DNA from: a virus
Length of the DNA stretch: 28,748 nt
Virus record (IMG/VR): IMGVR_UViG_3300022756_000102
Location: 1-28,748 of that record
Strand: one strand, 5' to 3'
The translations under genes were made by a program, and so were the position numbers. Within the stretch, counting starts at the first letter, position 1. The number at the start of each line of letters is the position of its first letter. The notes under the pieces are model-generated. The model ran no database searches, was not told where the DNA came from, and saw only the letters and a list, made by a program, of their open reading frames with translations. Shown here piece by piece: positions 1,577 to 19,739 of the stretch.

Positions 1577-1894
1577 TTACTCGTACTCGTAAGTTACAGT
1601 TATTTCTGAGTCCGCTGAAACACGAAAGCATTTGAATAAAGCTAATTGTTGTTGCCCGCGTAATATCAAAATTCCTCCATCTGGAAGGACATGTCCAACA
1701 GTTGTGCTAGGCGTTGTTCCGTTGTAAGTCCAGCGAATTGGATTTCCATAATTAGTTAAGAAGGCTTCCTGCGCACCTCCGGACATTGAGCTATCTTTGT
1801 ACAAAGCCGGTGAAAGCACCTGTACTGCGTTAGTTACAGTAAGTTGCTCCATAAACTTGCCGCAGCCAGCTCTTTGATTGACTACAACAGCCAT
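1577..1894 (-). CDS. Small virion-like beta protein, unknown function
   Basis: A 105-aa protein with no recognised family. It has a beta-rich C-terminal half: GNPIRWTYNGTTPSTTVGH, then DGGILILRG, then a strand pair ending in ITVTYEYE. This layout (R-W-x-Y-x-GTTPS..VGH..L..G..L.L) recurs in small structural proteins of tailed phages, from memory, but no function can be assigned. The ATG at 1894 has a GGGGC-type upstream site at a usual distance. It is the first minus-strand gene after the plus-strand HNH island, which ends the upstream operon at 2622. Transcription therefore either crosses the island or restarts near 1900. Confidence 0.6.
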   Translation of the reverse strand: MAVVVNQRAGCGKFMEQLTVTNAVQVLSPALYKDSSMSGGAQEAFLTNYGNPIRWTYNGTTPSTTVGHVLPDGGILILRGQQQLALFKCFRVSADSEITVTYEYE

Positions 1895-1906
1895 TTTCTA
1901 TGCCCC

Positions 1907-1935
1907 TTGACAACAATGTTTAAAGATGTTATTAT
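1907..1935 (+). promoter_or_regulatory. Sigma70-like promoter of the plus-strand HNH island
   Basis: TTGACA at 1907-1912, a 17-nt spacer, then TATTAT at 1930-1935: six and five matches to the consensus at ideal spacing. The predicted transcript start (about 1942) is only a few bases before the ATG at 1946. The HNH message would therefore be nearly leaderless, or would start at the ATG at 1964. Confidence 0.6.
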
Positions 1936-1945
1936 TGAAAGTACC

Positions 1946-2437
1946 ATGCCACATACGCCTAAAATGATTTACTGTGCTTTCTGCAACAAGCCTTTTATAA
2001 CGACTAGACCAATTCAAAAATGCTGCTCTAGGCATTGCAGTTCTTTGAAGAAGATAGAGTCTAATTCTAAGGTAATATGCTCTGCTGATGGATGTGCAAT
2101 CATATCCAAAAGAAGTAAATTTTGTCCTCTTCACAAGCAGAGACTTTACAAATACGGAAATGCTAATGCTCCTTATAAGATCGCAAAAAAAGGTTCTGGT
2201 CACGTTACAAAGGCTGGTTACAAGACGATTTGGGCTGATAATAGACCAATTCTTGAACATCGTTATATTATGCAAAAGTATCTTAATAGGAAGCTTCATA
2301 GAAGCGAATATGTGCATCATGTTAATGGAAACAAGTCTGACAACAGGCTTGAGAATCTTAAACTCACTATTGCTTCTCAACATGCAAGGGAGCATTTTAA
2401 TAAAAGGATAAAAAATGAAAAAGGTCAGCTTGTTTAA
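1946..2437 (+). CDS. HNH homing endonuclease (HNH_3 type) with N-terminal zinc motifs
   Basis: A 163-aa protein from the ATG at 1946 (ATGs at 1916 and 1964 are alternatives; 1916 lies upstream of the predicted transcript start). It begins with a zinc-ribbon-like stretch (C10xxC13, C26, C27, H30, C31), then a second set (C45, C50, C60, H63). The nuclease part follows: GHVTKAGYKTIW near 85-96, H105, then the HNH core YVHHVNGNKSDNRLENL at 122-138 and H146. This layout is known from free-standing homing endonucleases of phages, which nick or cut intron- or island-free alleles and so spread their own gene. It lies on the strand opposite to all surrounding structural genes, is visibly AT-richer than they are, and has its own promoter. 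These are signs of recent arrival. No intron boundaries are visible. Confidence 0.85.
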   Translation: MPHTPKMIYCAFCNKPFITTRPIQKCCSRHCSSLKKIESNSKVICSADGCAIISKRSKFCPLHKQRLYKYGNANAPYKIAKKGSGHVTKAGYKTIWADNRPILEHRYIMQKYLNRKLHRSEYVHHVNGNKSDNRLENLKLTIASQHAREHFNKRIKNEKGQLV

Positions 2438-5943: not shown

Positions 5944-6035
5944 GTTGGCATCTCCTTATTTAAAGGAGCATTATCAGATATCTGACTTTGCCACTTTGGT
6001 TTAAGATACTTTATTCCTAGATAATTACTAGACAT
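5940..6035 (-). CDS. 31-aa ORF coupled between HNH-AP2 gene and tail gene
   Basis: ATG at 6035 overlaps the TGA of the HNH-AP2 gene (TGATG), and the stop TAG overlaps the presumed ATA start of the next gene (ATAG). The peptide is basic and polar (NYLGIKYLKPKW near the start). It may be a real coupling peptide, a remnant of the sequence in which the endonuclease inserted, or the lost N-terminus of the next gene through a -1 shift. No family is recognised. Confidence 0.35.
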   Translation of the reverse strand: MSSNYLGIKYLKPKWQSQISDNAPLNKEMPT

Positions 6036-6511
6036 CAGACACCTACCATTTTTTTAAAGTTTAATGTTGCAAATTCGCCATGCATTTTAATTGCCTCCAA
6101 ATCATATGCTCTTGCTGCATTTATAAGACTGTTAAATGAACCAAGATAATATTCCTTATTATTATTTCTTATTTTTACCGACCAACTATTTCCTTTTCTA
6201 ACAACTCCTCTATAACCACTTCTTGATTTTCTTCTTAAAGGTGTGTGAGCCATATTCTGACTTCCAGTACAAATTCTAAGATTTTTTATTCTGTTATCAA
6301 GACCATTTCTATTTATATGGTCAACTTGCATATGTCTAGGACAATCCATAACTAACCTATGAACATACACATTCTTTTTATTTATTGTAACTATTGAATA
6401 TTTGATACCAACTTTAGAAGGAGCCAATGAACATATTTTTCTACCCAGAAGTTTTGGCAAACTTTTCCTATCTATTAATATTTTATCTCCCCTAGCTGAT
6501 AAAACTTCCAC
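6035..6511 (-). CDS. HNH homing endonuclease with C-terminal AP2 domain
   Basis: A 158-aa protein starting at GTG (6511), eight bases after AAGGAAG; the start lies within the last codons of the GNAT-like gene. An N-terminal segment leads into the HNH core: VHRLVM near 49-54, then HMQVDHINRNGLDNRIKNLR with the catalytic-type H and N, and a final N-M-A-H. After it comes an AP2/ERF-type DNA-binding domain (SGYRGVVRKGNSWSVKI, YYLGSFNSLINAARAYD, then FATLNF). HNH-AP2 fusions are known mobile endonucleases in phages and plastid or bacterial genomes. The gene is AT-richer than its neighbours, rich in AAA and AAT codons, and disturbs the start of the gene below it. Unlike the island at 1946 it follows the operon direction. 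No flanking intron is evident. Confidence 0.88.
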   Translation of the reverse strand: MEVLSARGDKILIDRKSLPKLLGRKICSLAPSKVGIKYSIVTINKKNVYVHRLVMDCPRHMQVDHINRNGLDNRIKNLRICTGSQNMAHTPLRRKSRSGYRGVVRKGNSWSVKIRNNNKEYYLGSFNSLINAARAYDLEAIKMHGEFATLNFKKMVGV

Positions 6512-8361: not shown

Positions 8362-9921
8362 CTAAATCCTCCCTTCGTATGGCCGGGCATGAATTGTATA
8401 TTCAAGGAAAGCCGGGACAGTGGATGAGATTGTGTTCTCGATCTTCACCCTTACCGTTTTCCCGCGGCCTTTAAACTTCGTCCTAAAGTTAGAGGCTCTG
8501 ATTTGGTTCCCGCCTGTTGTGGCGGGGGTCGTAAACGGGGTTTGCAAGGCTCCCGATAAGACAGAAGTCCCAAAGCTTGAGAAGCCCTGACGATCTATAT
8601 CGATTGAATAGTTGTAGGTGGCGTCTGAGCCAGTCTCAGCCACCATCTCGACCGGGTCAAAAACCTTTTCAAAGAATTGATCCTTGAAGTCATGTTGGCG
8701 GGAGATGATTGTTTGAACGATTGTGGTTCCGTTGTCTGTCTCGCCGAATAGGATTTTATAGCAAAGAGAATCGGCTAAGGATGAGCCTCCCACAATAGTT
8801 CTCGTATTGTCCCCGAACCCGAAAGATGTAAACGAGGAGAGATTCCAGGTGTTAATAGGTATCGAGGTCCAAGCGGAGCTGGGGTCACCGTTTCTTTCGG
8901 CTGCGACAGAATCCCAGATCACAAACCGGTTAGGGATGGTAGATGTCCCTACAGGAACACCCAGGATATATAGACCGTTCTCAAACCAGCCCACCGACTC
9001 TTGAATGGCGTCCTGATTGATATCATCCATAATGTCTTGGATGGGTTCAGATATGACACCAAGGCTGATCTTATCAAAGGTCGTGCGGGAGAGGAGCCTG
9101 ACACTGTTGTCGTTGGCTAAGAATATCTGGTCATTTCCAATGTCGGCTACCGTGCGCCCGGCAGTGCAGCCGATTGAGGTTGCAAGAGGCTGGACTGTCC
9201 AATCGGTTAAGGGTGTAGCGCCGGTCATATTGAGAACAAAGATTGAGTCGTTCTTATAGATAATGAGCTCTGAGTTCTTAAACATCTTAAGCCAGGTGAC
9301 TTTGCCTCCGTTACCGGAGCGGACTTTAAAGAGGTTTAGGGTCCTGTCCCAGGTCTGGGGGGCTAAAGTGTTGGAGAAGTAAACATAATCCCTTAGAGAT
9401 TGAGTGAGGCTTCCCGCCGCAAACATCCGGTTATTGGCGGCCCATTCAGCAAATAAAGTGCGAGGAAAGCTCGTATTCGTATTGGCTTCGTCTGTCACGG
9501 CGAAGGAGGTGTCGATAGAGAACACATTATCTGTGCCGTTTAAGATGAATGTGCGGTCCAGGGCCTGGACAAAGTTTGTGGTGAGACCTGTTGTTAAGGT
9601 TGTAAGGCCGGTAATGTCGGTCCAATCGGTAAAGCCAGGGTTTAAACGTTGGATCTTTGTCAGGCGGGCTCTTAAGACTGTGTCTAGTGTAGAACCAGCG
9701 GAGAAGTGATGGAGACCTAAGATTTTGTTGGAGGTTCCGTTTGAAGTGCCGAGGAGTGTGAGACCTCCCCGCTGGGTGACTTTTCCTCGGCGGGTAATGA
9801 TGCAGTTCTCTAGTAGCTCGGCTTGGTTTTCTTTGACAGAGGCGGGTTCAACGCCTGAGTTCTGGCCTCCTGAGAAGTCAGTGCAGCGTTCCTTGATGCG
9901 TTTGGAGGAGAGAATAGGCAT
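8362..9921 (-). CDS. Tail nozzle / stabilisation protein (P22 gp10- or T7 gp12-like)
   Basis: A 519-aa protein whose N-terminus reads DFSGGQNSGVEPASVKENQ followed by LLENCIITRRGKVTQRGG. This is the typical opening of podovirus tail tubular B/packaged-DNA stabilisation proteins (start of a beta-propeller with N, R and RxG motif). The body repeats strands such as LTTNFVQALDRTFILNGTDN, AANNRMFAAGS, YVYFSNT, TWLKMFKNSELIIYKNDS and DIGNDQIFLANDNSVRLLS, which fit propeller blades. The C-terminal third is a beta domain ending in an R-P-Y-E-GRI tail. Its ATG overlaps the stop of the adaptor gene (TAATG), with GGGAG upstream. It would form the distal tube that closes the portal channel. Assigned to the class, not to a particular family entry. 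Confidence 0.75.
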   Translation of the reverse strand: MPILSSKRIKERCTDFSGGQNSGVEPASVKENQAELLENCIITRRGKVTQRGGLTLLGTSNGTSNKILGLHHFSAGSTLDTVLRARLTKIQRLNPGFTDWTDITGLTTLTTGLTTNFVQALDRTFILNGTDNVFSIDTSFAVTDEANTNTSFPRTLFAEWAANNRMFAAGSLTQSLRDYVYFSNTLAPQTWDRTLNLFKVRSGNGGKVTWLKMFKNSELIIYKNDSIFVLNMTGATPLTDWTVQPLATSIGCTAGRTVADIGNDQIFLANDNSVRLLSRTTFDKISLGVISEPIQDIMDDINQDAIQESVGWFENGLYILGVPVGTSTIPNRFVIWDSVAAERNGDPSSAWTSIPINTWNLSSFTSFGFGDNTRTIVGGSSLADSLCYKILFGETDNGTTIVQTIISRQHDFKDQFFEKVFDPVEMVAETGSDATYNYSIDIDRQGFSSFGTSVLSGALQTPFTTPATTGGNQIRASNFRTKFKGRGKTVRVKIENTISSTVPAFLEYTIHARPYEGRI

Positions 9922-10937
9922 TAGTAGCTACTCCCTAAGTCATAAAGGTTTCTCTGGGAATATGCTTTAGGATCTCCGTCGTCTGGGACAATCTGTGTGA
10001 TTAAGTTTCTGGGGCGTCTTGAGTACCAAAGCTCAGTCACACTTTGTGTAAACTTCTTCTCCTGGGCAATGGCGGAGTTTTCCTGTCCGTCTTCCCAAAG
10101 AGCGTCTGAGACAACACCTTCAATAATTTCGTTGGCACATGGAATTATCGGAGCGTCATTGTCGTTGGAGAGGGGAAGCCAGCGCTTCTTGTACCAAACT
10201 TGGGCTGTGCAGTTAGAAGAAGGGGTGGTGGATAGCCTTATCCACTTAAAGTATGGCGCTCTCTCGGTAGGGGAGAGCCTAGAGATAATATTTGCAGATG
10301 TTGTTTTTTCTCTGACGGTAACAATTCCTGCTAGATCCATTAAGATACCGCTTGATGTGCCGGATGTGATGACTAGCTCTGAACCCGCGTCATAGGTGTT
10401 GGTTGAGTCGACTGCTGTGACTCCGGTCAAGGTCTTTGATTCAGATAAAGGCATGCCGTTTACCTCACCTGTGATTCTGATAACCATAGGACTGATGTCG
10501 GAAGCGGAAGTGGAGAGGACTTGGACTTTATCGGCTATGGACATTAAAGCAGAACAGGACTTAGAGCCAATATCGATGTAGTTATCGGGATTCCCGGTCT
10601 GGACGTTCCCTAAGACTTCAAGGGTGACGGCGTTAAAGCGGATATGGTCGCGGATATCAAGTGCTGTGATCTCCTGCCCGTGAGTTTGATCCCAGATCTT
10701 GATTATCTGTTCAAGGTCATATCGGAGAGCGTAATCTCTGATGCCTGAGAGAATGGATAGGCTATAGCTTCTATTCAGCTCATCCCAGGGGAAGCTCCTT
10801 AGGATTCTGTCATAGCGGGTACGGCACCAGTCTTTGACCTTGGGGAGGAGGTCGTTGGCGTTTGTTGTGGAGGTAGATGTGTTTTGCACAAGCGCCATCG
10901 CACGGACTTGAATTCTCTTGAATGTATCGTTTTGCAT
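9921..10937 (-). CDS. Head-tail adaptor / tail tube A-like protein
   Basis: A 338-aa protein. The N-terminal 60 residues (helices with VKDWCRTRYDRILRSFPWDEL) match the pattern of podovirus adaptor or tail tubular A proteins, where a helical bundle with an N/R-x-x-FPW motif docks beneath the portal. A beta-rich insertion follows (TLEVLGNVQTG to TVREKT) and then strands KWIRLSTTPSSNCTAQVWYKKRWLPL, close to the Y-x-x-K/R-x-W-x-P motif common in this class. The C-terminal helix (ANEIIEGVVSDALWEDGQ, then FTQSVTELWYSRR) is again typical. The ATG is coupled to the preceding stop (TAATG). The order adaptor then nozzle agrees with other podoviruses. Confidence 0.75.
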   Translation of the reverse strand: MQNDTFKRIQVRAMALVQNTSTSTTNANDLLPKVKDWCRTRYDRILRSFPWDELNRSYSLSILSGIRDYALRYDLEQIIKIWDQTHGQEITALDIRDHIRFNAVTLEVLGNVQTGNPDNYIDIGSKSCSALMSIADKVQVLSTSASDISPMVIRITGEVNGMPLSESKTLTGVTAVDSTNTYDAGSELVITSGTSSGILMDLAGIVTVREKTTSANIISRLSPTERAPYFKWIRLSTTPSSNCTAQVWYKKRWLPLSNDNDAPIIPCANEIIEGVVSDALWEDGQENSAIAQEKKFTQSVTELWYSRRPRNLITQIVPDDGDPKAYSQRNLYDLGSSY

Positions 10938-12526
10938 TAGTTTCTATCCATGTTGTAAAGTTTCCCAACTTCATTTGCAGTAAGCTGGCGGTCAAATAGT
11001 CTGACTCCGGTCATTGAGAAAGCTCCAAACCCGGCCCCAATTGCCCCCAGAGCGGCCGCTGAACACGTTACTGCGGTGGCTGATGTGACGGCTACATAAG
11101 CCCAACTTCCGGCGCCAAGAGTTGCTCCTAGAACGCCATTCACATAAACAGTCGGTGAGGTCCAAGATGTCGCGGCGATAGTACCGGACGTAATCTGAAG
11201 TGCCTGAGTTCCATTTAAATCAATCCATTCTTCTGTGGTTGTGTCCGTATTCACCCAAAAAGAGAGTGCGTAAATACTTCCAAGACTTCCAAGTGTAATC
11301 TTCGAGTTGGAACCGTTAAAAACCATCGCAGTGCCTGATTTCGTGTTTGCACCACGGGTCATATTGGATGGCGTATAAGATACTTTTGTGAGTCGATCTG
11401 TGAACTTTCCATCTTTCCCATCAAGTGCATCCAGCCAAGCAATAGTTCCACGGTTTACAGCACTGCGAGAGTTTCCAATATCTACATTTGAGAATTTCCA
11501 TCCGGAGTTACCGGAAACATTGATTGAATTTCCTCCGGCATAAAACGTCCCGGTGGCGGCTGAATCCTGAAGAGAAAGGAATCCACATTCAACCATACCA
11601 ACTGATTTTGATAGAGTTGCGGCACTGCCGGCAGATGAGGAATTTATTGTGATTAGATTATTTCCATTTCCAAAGTTATCACCTCCGGTGCCGGTTAATG
11701 TCGTAGTCACACCGGCAGGGAATGTTAGCGTCTTAGTTCCGCCGGATATTTTTGGGAGGGTTAAGAATGTATTGGCTCCTGTGAAAATTACAGGTCCACT
11801 TCCACCGCCGGTAATATTAATTGTGTTGAATGTTTGAGCGCCACCGGCGAATGTCTTTGATGAGGCAGACACATCTGAGATAACGATCTGGGACGTGCCT
11901 TTGTCAAAGGAAAGCAGGGTTTGTGTGGCAAATGTGAATATCGTTCCAACCCCTTTCAGTGTGAGTGTACTATTGCCAAGCTTCAGTGTCCTGGCGTTTG
12001 CGTTTGATGACGCAAATAGTCCGATGGAGTGAGATAGATTAGAATTGTCAGATGCGCCGTCCATTTGGAGTGTGCCGGCAGTCAATGTGACGGTGGCTCC
12101 TGCTCCGGTGGTAAGAGAGTCAATGAAAGCCCACTTGCCGGCCGCTCCGTTAAAAGTAATGTTACCGAATGTCTTTGTGGCAGTGGTTATGCTTTGCTGT
12201 TCTGTTGCAGTTGAGACAAACGATACTGCTGATGTTGCAGCATCTCCAAGGTTGTAGGTCATGCCGGAGGCCATCTTTAAGGCCACGCCGGCAAGCCCGG
12301 CTGTTGCGTCACCAATTGTGAGGGTTACACCTGCTGTGTGTGAGACTGTGCCGGCAAAACCGGTAAAATCAAGACTGCGACAAACCGAACCGGTATCGAT
12401 TGTAATACTGGTAGTGCCAATTCCGACTTGAGCATCATCGGCGGCTGTTGGGGCAACACCGCCGACCCAAGAAGTTCCGGCAGAGAAATTCCCTGCAGCT
12501 CCATTATTCGCTATTCTTGTAGCCAA
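10937..12526 (-). CDS. Beta-solenoid virion protein with C-terminal LamG-like domain
   Basis: A 529-aa protein. Residues 1-340 are rich in G, T, S and N, with short strands and repeated forms like TFGNITFNGAAGKW, TLKLGNSTLTLKG and FNTINITGGGSGPVIFTG. This is typical of right-handed beta-helix or autotransporter-like passenger folds; the opening (NFSAGTSWVGGVAPTAADDAQV) is a G8-like start seen in such proteins. From about 350 a concanavalin-like domain follows (NGSNSKITLGSLGSIYALSFWV, split here after 20 residues) and ends RLFDRQLTANEVGKLY. The TTG start at 12526 is supported by AAGGA at a seven-base distance. Likely a tailspike-like or surface adhesin; no catalytic site is visible. Confidence 0.65.
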   Translation of the reverse strand: MATRIANNGAAGNFSAGTSWVGGVAPTAADDAQVGIGTTSITIDTGSVCRSLDFTGFAGTVSHTAGVTLTIGDATAGLAGVALKMASGMTYNLGDAATSAVSFVSTATEQQSITTATKTFGNITFNGAAGKWAFIDSLTTGAGATVTLTAGTLQMDGASDNSNLSHSIGLFASSNANARTLKLGNSTLTLKGVGTIFTFATQTLLSFDKGTSQIVISDVSASSKTFAGGAQTFNTINITGGGSGPVIFTGANTFLTLPKISGGTKTLTFPAGVTTTLTGTGGDNFGNGNNLITINSSSAGSAATLSKSVGMVECGFLSLQDSAATGTFYAGGNSINVSGNSGWKFSNVDIGNSRSAVNRGTIAWLDALDGKDGKFTDRLTKVSYTPSNMTRGANTKSGTAMVFNGSNSKITLGSLGSIYALSFWVNTDTTTEEWIDLNGTQALQITSGTIAATSWTSPTVYVNGVLGATLGAGSWAYVAVTSATAVTCSAAALGAIGAGFGAFSMTGVRLFDRQLTANEVGKLYNMDRN

Positions 12527-12535
12527 TAGATTTCC

Positions 12536-13012
12536 TTATGCGGCCTGAGCGACTGCCACTGTTCCAGAAAGACCGAAGGGAATACTCATTGCATGGCCAA
12601 ACTGGTCTTCTAGGATCATTGTGATAGTTCCGGCTGCACCAAAGTCTGAGTCGGATGGGGTGATTCGAGCAACCCTCCAGATCTGCTCGGTGCCGGAGGT
12701 TGGGTCATTAGTCCTAAATTCTCCGGAGACGGAGTAGAAGGCGGAGCCCTGGCCGGCGTCTGTTAAGGGGCCTACAGTCCGGTTTTCATTTCCTGGGGAA
12801 GCACTAACAGAGGGTCTGAAGCGGACAAGGAGACCGTCTGTTGTGGTCATGGTGAGGGAGGTTTTAAAGGAGTACCTCACATCGGTTGTGGAGTTGTCAT
12901 CGATGGAAAGAGTGATTGTTTGAGAGGTATTGACGGTGTGTTCGATGCCGGTGGAATCTATGTACTTAAATTGTCCGGCGGTGAAAGTCAGGACGGATGC
13001 AACAGCGGCCAT
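12536..13012 (-). CDS. Beta-rich virion-like protein, unknown function
   Basis: A 158-aa protein with no recognised family. It is predicted all-beta: strands such as VLTFTAGQFKYIDSTGIEH, QTITLSIDDNST, VRYSFKTSLTMTT, SAFYSVSGEF and GTITMILEDQFG. There are no cysteines and few charged residues in the C-terminal ten (VAVAQAA). The ATG has TAGGAG upstream at a usual distance. It is the first tail-module gene after the glycan cassette, ten bases from the beta-solenoid gene. A small structural or decoration protein is plausible. Confidence 0.55.
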   Translation of the reverse strand: MAAVASVLTFTAGQFKYIDSTGIEHTVNTSQTITLSIDDNSTTDVRYSFKTSLTMTTTDGLLVRFRPSVSASPGNENRTVGPLTDAGQGSAFYSVSGEFRTNDPTSGTEQIWRVARITPSDSDFGAAGTITMILEDQFGHAMSIPFGLSGTVAVAQAA

Positions 13013-13058: not shown

Positions 13059-13835
13059 TTAAAAGAACTTTTTCTGCCAGATTCCGTGGAAGTCGTCTTG
13101 GACAGGGAATCTATACTCGTAGTTGGACCTACACATGATGGTGTTAAATCCGAGAGATTCCATGTGTTTTGAAATTGAACGCTTATTCCACATGATGAAA
13201 TTGGTGTCATGCTTCCAGTGCATGAAGCAAGAAGATGAACGGGTATTGATGAAGTCGGTATCAACGTCCGATATGAATAGAATACCATCATCTGCAAGCA
13301 ACTTCTTACAAAGCTCCAAACTTCCGACTGGATTTAAGAAACATTTAAGCGTGTGATACATCCAAATGAGGGAGTACTTCATGTTCTCAGGAAACTGGTG
13401 GGTCTCGAAGTCGGAGGCGATAATGTTGCCGACAGAGGTGAATGAGGTGTTCTTGTCGATGATGGTGGGGACCCAGCCGCGTTCAAAGAAGGCTTCTTCC
13501 TGATAGGTGTTGGGACGCCCTACGATGAGGACACGCCTGCCGTAGATTAGCTCCTCAATGAGGGGGGAGTAAATTAAGACAGGGTAGCGGTAGGTGGCTT
13601 CTATCTTCTTGTCGTATTTTGAGTGGAGGAGCCAATAGTTCTGGTCATAAACCTTAGTGGGTCTTTGAGAGTTGAAGACGATGCCGCATGAGCAGGAAAA
13701 CCATTTAGAGGTCTTCCCGTCTTTAGCATTCTTCATGAAATAGACGTGACAGACATAGGCAGAGCAGACGGGGCAGTTGGTGACCTTGAGTTCTGGTTGA
13801 GCTAGAGGACTAGCTTCCCTTTTTAGATTTAAGAT
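13059..13835 (-). CDS. SAM methyltransferase with N-terminal zinc motif; apparent ATC start
   Basis: The C-terminal 200 residues are a class I methyltransferase-like fold: YGRRVLIVGRPNTYQEEAF (motif I region, G-R-P in place of G-x-G), WVPTIIDKN (acidic end of strand 2), YSLIWMYHTLKC (motif III region) and LADDGILFISD (post-III). The first ATG (13736) would remove the first half of the zinc motif. Upstream in the same frame is CPVCSAYVCHV, which pairs with SCSCGIVFNSQRP as in zinc-domain methyltransferases. The frame above holds no ATG, GTG or TTG, but a perfect AAGGAGG (13842-13848) stands six bases before ATC at 13835; I place the start there. The glycine-poor motif I makes activity uncertain. 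The gene closes the glycan cassette and likely acts on sugars or lipids handled by its neighbours. Confidence 0.68.
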   Translation of the reverse strand: MLNLKREASPLAQPELKVTNCPVCSAYVCHVYFMKNAKDGKTSKWFSCSCGIVFNSQRPTKVYDQNYWLLHSKYDKKIEATYRYPVLIYSPLIEELIYGRRVLIVGRPNTYQEEAFFERGWVPTIIDKNTSFTSVGNIIASDFETHQFPENMKYSLIWMYHTLKCFLNPVGSLELCKKLLADDGILFISDVDTDFINTRSSSCFMHWKHDTNFIMWNKRSISKHMESLGFNTIMCRSNYEYRFPVQDDFHGIWQKKFF

Positions 13836-14802
13836 GGTAGACCTCCTTGAAGCGGGTATAGACCTTATCCATAGGAATCCCGTCTGCCATACAAATGGAG
13901 CTATTTGTGACAGGGTTTAAGGGGCACTGGAGCTTCATATCGTAGATGAGGAAAAGACAAGGCGCGCATGGGGCGAGGACTGAGTCAGTTTCGATGGAGT
14001 AGTCATTAAGGAAGTGTTTTGTGATGCACTCACGAGTATTATGGCCCAAGAGACAGATAAGAGTGGTTCCATGGGCGCCCGTCGCGTGGGCAATGCCTGT
14101 GTCTGGTGCAATGACGAGATCGACAAGCTTTGTTAAGGCCATCGACTGACGCATAGGAATATTGCCAGATAGCTTTGTAATGTTTCCTTCCATCGCGTCT
14201 TCTAATATCTGACACTTTACGTCTCCCACCGTGATGATGTGGACATCGGGGTAATCCTTACTGATTTGGTTACATAAGTCCATCATCCATGGGTAGCACT
14301 TGTTGGATCCTGAACCGGCGAGGCCGACTAGTATGTTAAAGGAGCCTGATTTAAGATGTCTCCTTGCATCGTCTAGTTCATGTTCTGAGAAGAACAGCTC
14401 TGGAGTGAGGTTTACACCTTTCCAGTCTTCACCAATGTGTTCAAAGGAATACTCGTAGAAGTTACGGTTAAAGCGGGCGATTCTCTCCTGCTTGGGGAGC
14501 TTATAATTGGGTCCTCTGGGATGCTGGCTTAATGCAACCTCAATGGACTCTGAGAAGTCGATTACTCGCTCACAGTGATTCTTTCTCTGTAGCCACCCGA
14601 TGTGTTCGGCCAGATGCTCTACTTTAATGTTCTCATCATGCTGGATGAGTTTATGGATGTGGGGATTATTCTTAAAAACTTCCATTCCGCGTTTTGAGGT
14701 GACGACATAGAGTTCGTGGCCTTGGAACTTAAGATATCGAAGGACTGGGGTTATAACCAGGCAGTCGCCAAAAGCGGCCGATCTAAATATAAGAATCTTC
14801 AT
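13810..14802 (-). CDS. GT9-family glycosyltransferase (heptosyltransferase-like)
   Basis: A 330-aa protein with GT-B architecture. N-terminal domain: MKILIFRSAAFGDCLVITPV, where G12-D13 is the family's acceptor-side signature. C-terminal domain: FNILVGLAGSGSNKCYPW, then the donor-site motif APDTGIAHATGAHGTTLICLLG. GT9 enzymes move ADP-heptose and related sugars onto LPS cores; several are misnamed and use other donors. A cysteine-rich C-terminal stretch (CAPCLFLIYDMKLQCP, and a later C) resembles the CxPC insert seen in some GT9 relatives. The ATG overlaps the TGA of the GT2 gene (ATGA), so the pair is coupled. It may modify host glycans or phage proteins in the cytoplasm. Confidence 0.87.
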   Translation of the reverse strand: MKILIFRSAAFGDCLVITPVLRYLKFQGHELYVVTSKRGMEVFKNNPHIHKLIQHDENIKVEHLAEHIGWLQRKNHCERVIDFSESIEVALSQHPRGPNYKLPKQERIARFNRNFYEYSFEHIGEDWKGVNLTPELFFSEHELDDARRHLKSGSFNILVGLAGSGSNKCYPWMMDLCNQISKDYPDVHIITVGDVKCQILEDAMEGNITKLSGNIPMRQSMALTKLVDLVIAPDTGIAHATGAHGTTLICLLGHNTRECITKHFLNDYSIETDSVLAPCAPCLFLIYDMKLQCPLNPVTNSSICMADGIPMDKVYTRFKEVYHLKSKKGS

Positions 14803-15587
14803 TTCTCATATACACTGAAGGAGAACCTGCCCCAGGTTTTAGCTTCGCCGTCCAAAGGCATCTGTTTCATGAGCTCTGCGTATTGGAGGCCTGCCAGCTT
14901 CTCTAAAAACTTCTTTTGGTCTGATTCTGCCGTGACGCCGGAAGCCGATGTAGTGACGCTCAGATGATGGATTACGCGGCTTCTTGCAACCATCATCACT
15001 TTCCACCCGTTCATTTTGGCCCGGATGCAGTAGTCAGAGTCAGAGCAGAAGTTTCTGAAACGTTTATCAAGGAGACCTATTTCCCTGACCATACTCATGC
15101 GGAGGAGTCCTGAGGCAAGCGGTATCCAGTTGACCTCGATGGGGATGTCGGGAAGCGACTTCTCATCGGTGAAATATTGGAAGCCGCGTATCAAATCAGC
15201 TCCGCAAAGTTCCATGTTCTGAGGGAGTCTGTCGGGGTGTACACGGATGGATGCGGCGATACCGATGGAGGGGTCGGATGACATGACTTGGACGAGTTCG
15301 TAGAGAAAGCCAGGTTGGGCAATTGTGTCGTTATTCAGGAGAAGAACATAATCGAATCTATCTTGACCCCAGAGGATGCCCTGGTTTGAGGCGTTCGTGA
15401 AGCCGGAGTTTGAGTCTAAGCGCAGCACATTGACCTTGGGGTTCAGGTAAGGAATCTCAGAGCCGTCATCGACTACTAGTATCTCAATGGGTTCTCCAGT
15501 TCCATAATTCTTAACTACTGAGTCTATGCAGGCATCCGTGTAAGAGGCCTTACCGAACATGGGAATGACGATGAAGATGTTATTCAA
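14799..15587 (-). CDS. GT2-family glycosyltransferase
   Basis: A 262-aa protein with a standard GT-A fold: IFIVIPMFGKASYTDACIDS at the N-terminus, nucleotide-sugar motif VVDDGS (38-43), DSNSGFTNASNQGI, metal-site motif LLNNDT (NND, 85-87 in place of DxD) and FCSDSDYCIRAKMNGW with the ED-like base region. This pattern is that of rhamnosyl- and similar transferases. The start is taken at TTG (15587), where it overlaps the previous stop (TTGA) and the protein then begins directly at strand 1; a GTG at 15617 is the alternative. Neither has a good ribosome binding site, so expression may depend on coupling. It is flanked by GT9 and methyltransferase-like genes. Confidence 0.87.
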   Translation of the reverse strand: MNNIFIVIPMFGKASYTDACIDSVVKNYGTGEPIEILVVDDGSEIPYLNPKVNVLRLDSNSGFTNASNQGILWGQDRFDYVLLLNNDTIAQPGFLYELVQVMSSDPSIGIAASIRVHPDRLPQNMELCGADLIRGFQYFTDEKSLPDIPIEVNWIPLASGLLRMSMVREIGLLDKRFRNFCSDSDYCIRAKMNGWKVMMVARSRVIHHLSVTTSASGVTAESDQKKFLEKLAGLQYAELMKQMPLDGEAKTWGRFSFSVYEK

Positions 15588-16042
15588 AGAGGCTTTTTTA
15601 AGGTGATGTGGTAGCACTCAGGGGTCTCTGAGGCAACGTCCATATCGCGAACTTTAGAGACAAGCTCGAATCCTTGTTCCTTACAAGCATCAGCAAAGGA
15701 GTCCATGTCCCAGAGAATATAGTTCACTCTGGGGTTAAAGCCGGTGTATTCGTGAGGACGAGACCAGATCACAAAGTAAGGATCTCGCATAGTGATCTTA
15801 ATAACACTCTCAGGCGTTGACTGGTTAAAGATGTCTTCCAACTTCTTAAGTGGATACTTCTCTGAGTTAAGACTGGCACAAGGCCTTGTCACATTCTGCC
15901 ACTTCGTGAAGAAGATGTTACGGCAGTTGCAGAAGGAGTAACCCATGTCAGGATACAGCATGCTTCTAGTAGTCTCAGGGTCCACGTAGAGGCCCCTTAT
16001 CATCATGCGCTGGACGTGCCCGCAAAGAGGGCATTCCTGCAT
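15584..16042 (-). CDS. Shortened zinc-domain methyltransferase relative lacking the SAM core
   Basis: A 152-aa protein from the ATG at 16042, ten bases after the preceding stop (an in-frame ATG at 16114 would overlap the GT9 gene by 62 bases; neither has a clear ribosome binding site). The first part is a zinc motif, CPLCGH with a second pair CNCRNIFF, as at the N-terminus of zinc-domain methyltransferases. The last 50 residues (NPRVNYILWDMDSFADACKE, then GFELVSKV) match the final helices and strands of such enzymes. The region between is too short for a Rossmann fold, and no G-x-G motif is visible. It may be a deletion product retained for binding, or a decaying gene. It shares its zinc arrangement with the enzymes at 13059 and 17045. 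Confidence 0.6.
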   Translation of the reverse strand: MQECPLCGHVQRMMIRGLYVDPETTRSMLYPDMGYSFCNCRNIFFTKWQNVTRPCASLNSEKYPLKKLEDIFNQSTPESVIKITMRDPYFVIWSRPHEYTGFNPRVNYILWDMDSFADACKEQGFELVSKVRDMDVASETPECYHITLKKPL

Positions 16043-16052
16043 GAAGAAAGGG

Positions 16053-17048
16053 TCAACAGGTGGGAGAGTTTTTGCTACACTCAAGAGCTTCTTGAGCCTT
16101 TTTGACAATGTCATCGATGTTAAACCATACGCATGAGGGCATCTTATTCAGAGTTGGACAGCCCCAGTATTCACGAGGGTTCTTGTGACAGGGGGAGCAG
16201 GAAACAGGGGACTGCAAATAATAGGCGTTTTCAGCGCCTAGAACGTGATTGGCCGGACTCGCGGCGGTTAAGAGCTGTAAGCAAGGGGCATTCCAAGAGT
16301 GGGCTATGAGGGGCAGGCCTGACTCGACACTTATTGTGAGGTCTAGATACTTTGTCATTAAGGCGACACTTCTTATGTTTCTTTTGCCGACCCATGAGAT
16401 GATTCGGTCTCCGGTGAATACTTGCTCTTTGCAATGCTCGTCTCCTGTCAGGAATATGATCGCCTGAGGATAGCGAGTAAGAATCTTCTCTGCCACACCT
16501 TCGGCTTGCATGAACTTTTTGTGGAGTGATGTTCCAGACAGATTAATGAGAATAAGATGGGATGCCTTATATTTCTCGCGAGTCTTAAGAGCTTCCTCAC
16601 GAGCTGCTCGATGGTCTTCCTCTGCATAATAAAGTCCTCCTCGCTCTCCAAGATACTTGTCAGGCAAGTTGCAAGCCTTCGTCATCACGTCATAATAGCT
16701 TATCTTTCCGAAGGAATTTCTGCGGTAATCAGTGCTACGGTAATACCTCGAATCATTCTCGTTCAAGCAGTAGGCTAGCTCAATAGTGTATATGAGATTG
16801 AAGGATAAATCATAGGTCTCCTCGCACCAGTCCCAGTTCTTACGCAGACGGTTATCTGTCAGCTTTGTGTGATCGATGTAGATCAGGTTATCGATGAATG
16901 GGTTATTCTGGAGGATCTGGATGCCCTGGTAGTTTGTCTCAAAGTCTATGCGGTCTACTGAGTAGTGGTCTTTAATGAGGCGGGGAAGGTGGCTGGCAAA
17001 AAGGAGGTCCCCGAGGCCCCCGAATCTCGATATAAATGCTGTCTTCAA
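16053..17048 (-). CDS. GT9-family glycosyltransferase (second copy, diverged)
   Basis: A 331-aa GT-B protein. The N-terminus KTAFISRFGGLGDLLFASHL carries the family's G-x-G-D signature at 11-14. The C-terminal domain has LILINLSGTSLHKK, then AIIFLTGDEHCKEQ and the donor-side pattern DLTISVESGLPLIAHSWNAP, where E-S-G replaces the D-T/S-G of most members. A cysteine cluster (CSPCHKNPREYWGCP, then C) mirrors that of the other GT9 here, suggesting the two share ancestry or partners. The TTG start at 17048 sits in a TTGA overlap, with AGGG and GAGG upstream. The two genes are only distantly alike in sequence, so different linkages are likely. Confidence 0.84.
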   Translation of the reverse strand: MKTAFISRFGGLGDLLFASHLPRLIKDHYSVDRIDFETNYQGIQILQNNPFIDNLIYIDHTKLTDNRLRKNWDWCEETYDLSFNLIYTIELAYCLNENDSRYYRSTDYRRNSFGKISYYDVMTKACNLPDKYLGERGGLYYAEEDHRAAREEALKTREKYKASHLILINLSGTSLHKKFMQAEGVAEKILTRYPQAIIFLTGDEHCKEQVFTGDRIISWVGKRNIRSVALMTKYLDLTISVESGLPLIAHSWNAPCLQLLTAASPANHVLGAENAYYLQSPVSCSPCHKNPREYWGCPTLNKMPSCVWFNIDDIVKKAQEALECSKNSPTC

Positions 17049-18298
17049 ATGACCCTGACCTCAGGGATGGGAAGGATATATTTACAGTTTAGATGCTGTG
17101 TCTTTCTTATTAGCTCCTCTTTAAAATTCCAGGCCAGAAGAAGGATGTAATCGGGACTGTCTTTCTCGAACCGGCTGAAGTCCACTATTGGAATAAGAGA
17201 GCCTGGAGTCCATTTATTCTGCTTCTCCGGGGTGTCATCCACGATGGAGTCAATGAGGGTATTATCTACGTGACAGTAGTTAAGAAGGCTTATCCCCTTG
17301 GCTGAGGCGCCGTAGCCCATCACTTTGGAGCCAAGGTTATAAAGCTCACCCAGGGTGTGAGAGAGGTGAGTTCTTACCGAGTCAACTCGAGAACCGAAGG
17401 ACAGGTAATAATCTTCTGAGTAGAGCCCACGGGATGCCTCAATATCAAGGAACCTGTTAACGGAGCTTTTAACCGGATAAAAGTCTTTTGATGCATAAAT
17501 TCTTAAAGACCCGCCATGGATATCCAGCTCCTCTACATCGAATATGGAAAGGTTATGAGCCCGAAATAGACCAATGAGAGGGGCCAGGAGAAAGTAGGAC
17601 AGATGCTCATGATAGATCGTGTCAAACTGGTTATGAGTGAATAGATCCCACAGGTAAGGAAACTCTGCAACAAAGACTCCATCTTTTTTTAAAGATATCT
17701 CGACGCCGCTTAAGAAGTCGTCCAGGTCATGCACGTGGGCAAGGACATTTGTGGCGATAATGAAGCCTGCGTTGTTGGCCTTGTAGACATATTCCTTTGC
17801 AATGGTGAGAGACCAGAAGGCTTTCAATACCGGGATTGCATAAGGTTTATTGTTGTCACTTAGATAGTCTTTATAGCCATAAGGTTCTGAAGCTAAGTTT
17901 GAGGCCGGTTCTATGCCAAGGAAATGCGAGAAGCCTGCTTTCTGAAACTCTCTTAGAAGACAGCCATCGTTTGAAGCGATATCAACGATGAGGGTATGTT
18001 TCTGTGGCATAAATGTGTCTCTCAGTTTAATGGCAAGGCTATAGCAGTGTTTCTTAAAAGTTTCTGAGACCGATGAGTGGTAGAGATAGTGAGAATAAAG
18101 AAGTGAGGGGTCAACAACAATGGATAGTTGGGATAAGTAGCAAGTTTGGCAAAAAAGCATGCTGACGGGATACTTTTCAGCCTTGAGTGATGGGTGATCT
18201 AGGAGGTTGTTAGAAAGGGGGGCAAAGCCTAGATCGAGGTATTTAAAAAGCTCTTTTGACTTGCAGATCCGGCATGAGGTGAGGGTCTTATAATCCAA
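17045..18298 (-). CDS. Zinc-domain sugar C-methyltransferase-like protein
   Basis: A 417-aa protein with the full three-part architecture of sugar C-methyltransferases (TylC3/NovU type). It has an N-terminal zinc domain (C9xxC12, C50xxC53), a SAM domain with motif I VDIASNDG (105-112), and a C-terminal domain with the family's EFPYLWDLFTHNQFDTIYHE, SYFLL, HGGSLRIY and VMGYGASAKGISLLNY motifs. The HE and Y of the YHEH segment are the expected active-site neighbours. Such enzymes methylate NDP-keto sugars for deoxysugar synthesis. The sugar maker itself is not in the window, so the donor must come from the host or elsewhere in the phage. The start is TTG at 18298, five bases after AAGGAG. It is the first gene after a strong terminator hairpin. 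Confidence 0.87.
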   Translation of the reverse strand: MDYKTLTSCRICKSKELFKYLDLGFAPLSNNLLDHPSLKAEKYPVSMLFCQTCYLSQLSIVVDPSLLYSHYLYHSSVSETFKKHCYSLAIKLRDTFMPQKHTLIVDIASNDGCLLREFQKAGFSHFLGIEPASNLASEPYGYKDYLSDNNKPYAIPVLKAFWSLTIAKEYVYKANNAGFIIATNVLAHVHDLDDFLSGVEISLKKDGVFVAEFPYLWDLFTHNQFDTIYHEHLSYFLLAPLIGLFRAHNLSIFDVEELDIHGGSLRIYASKDFYPVKSSVNRFLDIEASRGLYSEDYYLSFGSRVDSVRTHLSHTLGELYNLGSKVMGYGASAKGISLLNYCHVDNTLIDSIVDDTPEKQNKWTPGSLIPIVDFSRFEKDSPDYILLLAWNFKEELIRKTQHLNCKYILPIPEVRVI

Positions 18299-18317: not shown

Positions 18318-18356
18318 AAAAAACGCCGAAGGAGAATTAATACTCTCCTCCGGCGT
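18318..18356 (-). terminator. Rho-independent terminator, minus strand
   Basis: Arms of 13 bases (18323-18335 and 18344-18356) pair with one mismatch around an eight-base loop. On the minus strand the stem is followed directly by six T (18323-18318). It lies 14 bases beyond the stop of the 139-aa gene and 25 bases before the methyltransferase start. It thus separates the head module from the glycan cassette, and no promoter fits in the gap between. Confidence 0.85.
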
Positions 18357-18369
18357 AATTTTGACTGCC

Positions 18370-18789
18370 TTAGTTATCCGCTGCCTGAAATGCTTCCCGG
18401 TAGGAGACAACTGTCTGTACTGTGAAAGACGCCGCTGTAGACAGGATTGAGTAGAGGTTTAAGGAACCCCCTGTCGGAATCGTTGTCTCGGTGGCAACAC
18501 TTCCCGATACCACTGCCCCCGCCGCATGAGTGCCGACAAAGATGATGGTGCCTAATGCCACGGTGCCAAGCGAGCTTGTGGCCGCTAAGACCCACTGACT
18601 TGAACCGCCTGTGCCGAGGGTCGTGTTTGACATTGCCCAGTCAACAATCGTGATGGGATTCATCGCGACGAAACTGTCTACAATGCCTGTGGCACGAGTG
18701 CCTGCCGTAACCACTCCGAAGGTCAAGCTCTTTATTGACCCGTAAGATTGGTCGGAATAACTTCTGCCGCCTTTTGAACCAGTAGCCAT
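18370..18789 (-). CDS. Capsid-associated / decoration-like protein
   Basis: A 139-aa protein directly after the capsid gene (17-base gap) with a strong AAAGGAGGA ribosome binding site. It has low charge and is rich in S, T, A and G. It has a polar N-terminus (TGSKGGRSYSDQSYGSIK) and a beta-rich body (SSQWVLAATSSLGTVALGTI, then AAGAVVSGSVATETTI). No family is recognised. High-expression signals, position beside the capsid gene and a following terminator suggest an abundant head protein, such as a decoration or cement protein; a minor structural role is also possible. Confidence 0.6.
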   Translation of the reverse strand: MATGSKGGRSYSDQSYGSIKSLTFGVVTAGTRATGIVDSFVAMNPITIVDWAMSNTTLGTGGSSQWVLAATSSLGTVALGTIIFVGTHAAGAVVSGSVATETTIPTGGSLNLYSILSTAASFTVQTVVSYREAFQAADN

Positions 18790-18806: not shown

Positions 18807-19739
18807 TTAGAGTGAGTTAACGGTTATGATGCGGGTTTGACCATCATCTGAGAAGTCCCAGACCTGCTGGAACCCAAGGAGGGCGTACCAGGCGATGCCC
18901 TGGTCGCGGCCATAGTCGGTTGGGATACCGACGCGAATCTCCTCAGGAATTGCAACGCCCTCTCTCACCGCATCTGCTCCGAAGAAGCAGGCCTCACCAT
19001 AGAGACCATTGGAACCATCGGTGTTACCGAGGAAGTTTGTTTCTTCTATAAAGCGAGTCCCGTAGTAACGTCCGACTTCCCCGATGTAGAGGGGGTCCAT
19101 TGTCGTTAGTTGGGCTTTGGCTTCAAAGAAGTCGTAAAGACCTCGGATGGAGTTGGTGGACGCCATAGAAACATACATATCATCGTTAGACCGTCTCGGA
19201 ATAAATAGCTTCTTCATCTGGTCTACGATGTCACGCACGTTCTTGTCAGACATATTGGCACCAGCGGTTGCAGCAGCAGTACCCGCGGTTCCAAAGGTCG
19301 TTGTGGCGGTGTTGGTGATTGTGGCGATGTAGTCGTTCACCATGAACGCTGTGGCGGCCGCACTGTCTAGTACCACTTTCATATCGTTCATGAGGACTGT
19401 GCGGATTGTTTCAGGAACCTGGATATCGGACAAGGACTTTAGCTTCTGAGTGTAGGGGATTGAGTTCCCGAACTCAGTCATCGTTAAAGTGCCTTGCGTG
19501 ATTGTGTAGTTCCTCTTGGGGATGGTATCTGTCTCAGTCAAAGTCCCGCCCGCAGTTGAGATGTTCGAGACTTTATCGAAGAACACCTTGTTACCACGGT
19601 TGGTTCCCGCTGCAGCCTCCATGTCCACAAATTGGCGAAACTTCTGCATGGACTGGGCTTTGTAGCGGACTTCTTTGGACAGGGTGTTATTGGTAAAGTA
19701 GCCACCAAGGGAATTGGTAGCAAATACCTGTTGACCCAT
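18807..19739 (-). CDS. Major capsid protein (N4 gp56-like, HK97 fold)
   Basis: A 310-aa protein with the pattern of N4-gp56-type capsid proteins. The N-terminal part has FTNNTLSKEVRYKAQSMQKF, then FVDMEAAAGTNRGNKVFFDK and SNISTAGGTLTETDTIP (elongated arm and E-loop region); TLTMTEFGNSIPYTQKL follows. The spine and P-domain helices carry ETIRTVLMNDMKVVLDSAAA. The A-domain part has MYVSMASTNSIRGLYDF and YIGEVGRYYGTRFIEETNF, a piece I find diagnostic. The C-terminus returns to beta strands (GIAWYALLGFQQVWDF). The ATG at 19739 has GGAG upstream, 16 bases after the scaffold-like gene's stop. Length agrees with the family. It builds the icosahedral shell. Confidence 0.87.
   Translation of the reverse strand: MGQQVFATNSLGGYFTNNTLSKEVRYKAQSMQKFRQFVDMEAAAGTNRGNKVFFDKVSNISTAGGTLTETDTIPKRNYTITQGTLTMTEFGNSIPYTQKLKSLSDIQVPETIRTVLMNDMKVVLDSAAATAFMVNDYIATITNTATTTFGTAGTAAATAGANMSDKNVRDIVDQMKKLFIPRRSNDDMYVSMASTNSIRGLYDFFEAKAQLTTMDPLYIGEVGRYYGTRFIEETNFLGNTDGSNGLYGEACFFGADAVREGVAIPEEIRVGIPTDYGRDQGIAWYALLGFQQVWDFSDDGQTRIITVNSL

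Follow-up and report, generated by a model that had tools for sequence, protein, structure and literature searches.

The window analysed here is a stretch of 28,748 nucleotides of viral DNA (IMG/VR record IMGVR_UViG_3300022756_000102), in which a cassette of six genes for glycosyltransferases, methyltransferases and a zinc protein follows the capsid gene and a small neighbouring gene, g139. This cassette is probably a viral locus for building a glycan with which the phage decorates its own particle, and g139 is the most likely acceptor. More tentatively, we propose that the glycan type can be switched: this uncultured clade may obligatorily glycosylate a decoration protein, and the protein and its matching transferases and sugar genes would be exchanged as one unit, from the capsid stop codon to a constant GT9 gene, like bacterial capsule loci.

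Layout of the locus

On the minus strand of the window, genes for the small terminase (by position), the large terminase, a head-tail adaptor/portal protein, a scaffold-like protein (by position) and the capsid protein precede g139. After g139 come the six cassette genes, g158, a LamG-like protein, g338 and the head-closure-like g519. A longer record, IMGVR_UViG_3300021510_000002 (39.4 kb), encodes proteins identical to those of the window where they were compared. The gene starts of Zn, GT2 and MT2 were revised by comparison with relatives, and the features are as follows.

18807..19739, minus strand: major capsid protein, N4-gp56-like, 37-41% identical to those of Vibrio phage 219E41.1 and E. 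coli phage PTXU04 (phrog_1357, E 4e-13; TIGR04387, E 2.5e-13, below its cut-off; relatives)
18370..18789, minus strand: g139, small jelly-roll protein adjoining the capsid gene (alignment, AlphaFold, co-variation, swap breakpoints)
18323..18356, minus strand: terminator-like hairpin, 15 bp and a T-run, between g139 and the cassette
17045..18298, minus strand: MT1, predicted zinc-containing nucleotide-sugar 3-C-methyltransferase (TylC3/TcaB9-like)
16053..17048, minus strand: GT9a, glycosyltransferase family 9
15584..16084, minus strand: Zn, zinc ribbon and methyltransferase C-terminus without SAM core
14799..15587, minus strand: GT2, glycosyltransferase family 2
13810..14802, minus strand: GT9b, GT9, best-conserved gene of the cassette
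13059..13835, minus strand: MT2, zinc-ribbon methyltransferase
12536..13012, minus strand: g158, conserved gene directly 3′ of the cassette
9921..10937, minus strand: g338, conserved; proposed head-completion adaptor by position
8362..9921, minus strand: g519, head-closure (Hc3)-like (phrog_578, E 0.002)

Domain and profile matches recovered the six genes with the identities and the order given in the initial annotation. That annotation placed them between capsid and tail genes. The capsid side stands, but the downstream neighbours are head-completion genes and the tail genes come only after these. It also described coupling by short overlaps. With the refined starts, the cassette genes overlap by 4, 32, 4, 4 and 26 nt, which makes translational coupling across them credible at the level of sequence. 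Elsewhere in the window, HNH-endonuclease-like ORFs at 1844-2437 (plus strand) and 6035-6511 (minus strand) are, by eye, probably homing elements. The LamG-like gene (10937-12526), between g158 and g338, is a second variable site, which holds other ORFs or nothing in relatives.

The cassette had further been described as lying within the structural operon. Its location in the head region is right, but the strong hairpin at 18323-18356 divides the head genes from the cassette. Therefore, the phrase "inside one operon" needs qualification. In relatives, the hairpin after g139 had z < −3 at 23 of 34 loci; at each of eight other junctions this was the case in 0-3 of 10-34. A clear T-run is missing from the hairpin of many relatives. 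At the analogous position, phage PTXU04 has an annotated terminator. Sites found in a sigma-70 promoter scan were no more frequent than in shuffled sequence. Late action of the cassette is plausible from its position; because of the conserved hairpin in front of it, timing and level of expression are not readable from position. The hairpin would fit strong expression of capsid and g139, with less read-through into the enzymes. In two relatives, a tRNA-Thr(TGT) gene lies between g139 and the cassette (L005:4433-4508 and L010:8492-8564).

Enzymes of the cassette

MT1 contains a Methyltransf_13 zinc domain and Methyltransf_14 (E 7.5e-45), and aligns over its whole length, FDTIYHEHLSY included, with a TylC3-type D-mycarose 3-C-methyltransferase (E 2e-68). 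It has the zinc-binding N-domain, the SAM core, the Methyltransf_14 C-domain and the FDTIYHEHLSY motif of TylC3/TcaB9 enzymes, and the solved sugar 3-C-methyltransferases of this type are its relatives over the full length. MT1 is predicted to be a nucleotide-sugar 3-C-methyltransferase. Its start is a TTG behind AAAAAGGAG. GT9a matched the GT9 profile with an E value of 7e-4, slightly short of the Pfam cut-off; judged through its relatives, it is clearly GT9-like. GT2 matched the glycosyltransferase family 2 profile (E 4.6e-18) and is rhamnosyltransferase-like from weak matches; its start is most likely TTG 15587. The Zn protein combines a zinc ribbon with the C-terminal part of an MT2-type methyltransferase. 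Because this protein, in which the SAM core is absent, is kept in about 16 relatives, its label in the initial annotation, a core-less methyltransferase relative, is correct. Full-length methyltransferases occupy its position in other relatives. The most likely start of Zn, TTG 16084, matches MSV..LP of relatives.

GT9b is a divergent GT9 (profile E 8e-6, above the Pfam cut-off) with the motifs GD, DTGxxH and a CxxC-C-C tail, in which G12-D13 are almost invariant. The solved sequences nearest to it are an uncharacterised GT9 protein and LPS heptosyltransferase II, both weak matches, and the NCBIfam equivalogs for LPS heptosyltransferases (WaaC/F/Q) were not reached (best 28 bits, cut-off 170). 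The CxxC-C-C tail is reminiscent of the iron finger found in the protein heptosyltransferase TibC; motifs of this type are widespread in GT9, and the resemblance was not used. MT2 (E 3e-6) consists of a zinc ribbon and a SAM fold, and its SAM motif I is degenerate (VLIVGRP) in the branch of the window. Its start is most likely ATC 13835, upstream of the listed ORF and 6 nt after a perfect AAGGAGG; the window reads ILNLKREA where relatives have MLNLKKEA with ATG. This ATC (13833-13835, minus strand) is possibly a rare start codon or a recent loss. PHROGs yielded almost no annotation for the cassette genes.

Distribution of the cassette

Contigs were gathered by the capsid protein alone, with no selection for sugar genes, and were then scored for downstream glycosyltransferases. 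Contigs were counted only when they had at least 1.5 kb downstream of the capsid gene, and a few rows are near-duplicates. A glycan cassette was present at the site in 46/46 contigs with a capsid identity of at least 55%, in 6/8 at 45-55% and in 2/9 below 45%; its presence and absence need two changes on the capsid tree. Relatives without a cassette, which the initial annotation had named as possible counter-evidence, thus occur only at capsid identities below 55% and not within the clade. The search for the same order in other phages, also proposed there, showed it for homologous genes in dozens of independent contigs. Therefore, the arrangement is far beyond chance. The view that these genes are not in a moron position was borne out, the cassette having a constant place in the head region of all close relatives, and its universality in the clade and its fixed site rule out a moron or private insertion. 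Glycan genes that look "moron-like" can belong to the core of a head module.

The isolates PTXU04 (Escherichia coli), HelliStehle (Bas95, E. coli) and Vibrio phage 219E41.1 resemble the window in their capsids (35-41% identical) and head-module gene order. Unlike the window, they possess no glycan cassette and have only short hypothetical genes at the site. In distant contigs, a gene directly or nearly directly behind the capsid gene encodes a polypeptide of about 500-1,058 aa with a GT9 domain; two of these polypeptides also contain an FkbM-type methyltransferase domain. Very long fused GT9 and FkbM-type methyltransferase polypeptides lie directly after the capsid gene at L126:4962-8069 and L131:7706-10879.

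GT9a, GT9b, MT2 and g139 had no homologue among 50,697 phage records, and the clade is without an isolate in the records searched. A scan of bacterial genomes with GT9b gave only a weak match in Robertkochia and L031, a contig from a Candidatus Omnitrophota MAG, which seems to be viral itself. Thus, no cellular parent cluster was found. The capsid matched 2/384 Omnitrophota MAGs and 0/395 Bacteroidota, on contigs of 4-5 kb. The clade contigs in MAGs (L031, G005 and G318) are suggestive only of Omnitrophota as the host phylum, because binning error could explain them. An endonuclease-like ORF of 165-220 aa (intron or intervening sequence) splits the capsid gene in several contigs (L022:4413-6061, L061, L115 and L139:684-2232); such an interruption is also seen in a contig from an Omnitrophota MAG.

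Variation of the cassette among relatives

At least nine gene sets occur at the site, and at least 17 changes of cassette type are needed on the capsid tree. The GT9b-MT2 pair is near-constant at the 3′ end. The simplest form is GT9-MT-GT9-MT, and the type found in the window is MT1-GT9-Zn(-O-methyltransferase)-GT2-GT9-MT2. Other cassettes contain GT4 enzymes and a hexapeptide acyltransferase (L020, L103), B12/radical-SAM enzymes (L096, L114), the rhamnosyl O-methyltransferase RMNT_CmcI (L005, L012) or a GDSL esterase (L105). Those of L003, L039 and L069 encode DegT aminotransferase, FdtA, RmlD and an epimerase for amino-sugar synthesis. Thus, some viruses of the clade make sugar donors themselves. 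In L106, the first cassette gene encodes a fusion of a methyltransferase with an MptE-like domain of the Maf/PseD superfamily (E 6e-16), whose similarity to PseD falls far short of the NCBIfam cut-off; a radical-SAM enzyme is next. The MptE-like domain is absent from the window. Members of the Maf/PseD superfamily are cytoplasmic O-glycosyltransferases that modify flagellin (PMC11339370, PMC4065374).

Co-variation and exchange of g139 with the cassette

In alignments, g139 begins with a conserved YSDPSYG, and its body varies. Its AlphaFold model is an all-beta jelly-roll of eight strands (pLDDT 81), and a second g139 type was also modelled as a jelly-roll (pLDDT 80). Fold matches in the PDB were generic jelly-rolls with TM scores of at most 0.56, and no specific decoration protein was among them. 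The Ser/Thr content is 28% in g139, 17% in the capsid protein, 26% in g158 and 26% in the LamG protein. We propose g139 as a candidate capsid decoration protein and glycan acceptor. When the profiles of both g139 types were compared, one shared row biased the result, which was set aside. In distant relatives with GT9 downstream, g139-like genes stand in tandem behind the capsid gene (four copies at L072:7025-8249 and two at L065:7406-7835).

When capsid distance was controlled, g139 distance followed cassette composition with a partial r of 0.79. The same value was 0.45 for the portal, 0.41 for the scaffold, 0.33 for g338, 0.25 for g148, 0.13-0.21 for g158 and about 0 for GT9b/MT2. Because the permutation p of the partial Mantel test was at its floor (0.0005) for g139 and the controls alike, the co-variation argument rests on effect size. 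Among viruses with close capsids, g139 distance was 0.33 with like cassettes versus 0.69 with unlike ones.

The exchange can be seen in L095, L106 and L122, whose capsid proteins are 95-97% identical. Nucleotide homology among them ends 13 nt past the capsid stop codon and returns at the start of GT9b; their g139 proteins have no meaningful alignment, and the replaced stretch comprises g139 together with the 5′ cassette genes. The left edge of the exchanged block thus takes in g139 and leaves out the capsid gene, as it would if g139 had to fit the variable enzymes. Because the cassette is exchanged together with a gene next to the capsid gene, the decoration of virion proteins is favoured among the options in the initial annotation; the acceptor and the chemistry are what we infer beyond it.

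Alternative targets of the glycan

The initial annotation also considered O-antigen or LPS-like glycans and a change of the host surface. The LPS core or another surface glycan would then be altered late, which would block re-adsorption or superinfection, and g139 would be a head-borne adhesin for the same glycan. GT9 and GT2 are typical for LPS core and O-antigen, and weak NCBIfam matches to heptosyltransferases were obtained. The GT9 enzymes of LPS are soluble and require no membrane partner, and C-methylated sugars are found in surface glycans; LPS-core editing by soluble GT9 enzymes would be possible with this gene content. However, GtrA, the flippase that accompanies GtrB and a membrane Gtr transferase in the Gtr serotype-conversion cluster, was absent from 20 related records (the control was positive in 8/14 genomes), and Pfam scans gave no ligase, polymerase, flippase or lipid-linked priming transferase domain. 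The cassette ORFs encode few strongly hydrophobic proteins, and the window contributes none to those ranked highest. Moreover, a Maf-like domain stands in place of the first transferase in L106, and the genes are tied to the capsid/g139 boundary, not to tail fibres or lysogeny genes. A host-surface role, the main alternative, is unlikely on these grounds.

Alternatively, the acceptor may be another virion protein, such as the capsid, a tail protein or a fibre protein with a LamG domain, with g139 hitch-hiking in the block. Because g139 lies at the block edge, physical linkage alone could account for its co-inheritance, and the acceptors in mycobacteriophages are reported to be capsid and tail-tube proteins (PMC12363180). 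However, the capsid is near-invariant across the 17 cassette changes, the remaining virion genes follow the cassette far less than g139 does, and g158, on the opposite flank, does not track it. We consider such an acceptor quite improbable. That the enzymes glycosylate hypermodified DNA against host nucleases is very unlikely: phage glycosyltransferases frequently act on DNA and the GT2 of one relative resembles a TET-associated GT family below threshold (E 0.029), but no thymidylate-synthase-family enzyme was found in 20 records (control positive), the site adjoins the capsid gene and not replication genes, and sugar C-methylation and amino-sugar genes are present. In the TET/JBP search, the controls gave no match either, so absence there carries no weight.

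If the cassette decorates the particle through g139, its soluble enzymes would act in the host cytoplasm on host nucleotide sugars. MT1 would C-methylate a keto-sugar nucleotide, GT9a, GT9b and GT2 would assemble a short glycan, and MT2, with Zn as a non-catalytic partner, would methylate it. g139, whose gene separates the capsid gene from the cassette, would present the glycan on the capsid, and the benefit may be masking of the particle or tuning of binding. The virion glycotype would be switched by exchange of the block of g139 and variable transferases and sugar genes, while the capsid gene and the GT9b-MT2 pair would be retained.

Comparison with known systems

Phage virion glycosylation is known from a few mycobacteriophages. 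Here, a multi-gene glycan locus that is conserved yet hypervariable forms part of a head module, and a candidate acceptor changes along with it. A literature search that covered few subscription papers, and hence is not proof of absence, turned up no description of a multi-gene glycan locus that is polymorphic, lies in the head module of a phage and is exchanged with a capsid-adjacent protein. If our proposal is true, some phages possess exchangeable sugar coats, which would influence how stable the particles are, how they adsorb and how they are recognised. The clade would then also provide a tractable set of cytoplasmic protein-glycosylation pathways that include sugar C-methylation.

Bacterial polysaccharide and O-antigen loci likewise have constant edges, between which transferase and sugar genes are swapped. 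The cassette differs from them in that no flippase, polymerase or ligase was found, its flanks are viral head genes, and a gene of the virion region lies inside the swapped block. In flagellin glycosylation, the soluble transferases Maf and FlmG modify a filament protein in the cytoplasm (PMC7591256, PMC11339370, PMC4065374). L106 has a domain of the Maf superfamily, whereas the window has GT9 and GT2 instead of Maf. In chloroviruses and mimiviruses, transferases and nucleotide-sugar or modifying enzymes build an unusual particle glycan in a similar way (PMC5408694, PMC4691112, PMC9614988). These are large DNA viruses of eukaryotes (algae, amoebae); the cassette would work alike without being a member of that group.

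The closest likeness to our proposal is in mycobacteriophages, in which phage glycosyltransferases (Che8 gp110, Corndog gp38) modify the phage's own structural proteins and the glycans shield the particles (Freeman et al. 2023, as cited in PMC12363180 and PMC12619734). Phage-encoded glycosyltransferases are likewise present in the window and its relatives. In the mycobacteriophages, as described there, capsid and tail-tube subunits are the targets of single glycosyltransferases. In contrast, the locus described here is a polymorphic pathway of 4-10 genes with sugar C-methylation, which occupies one fixed site and is exchanged together with a capsid-adjacent protein.
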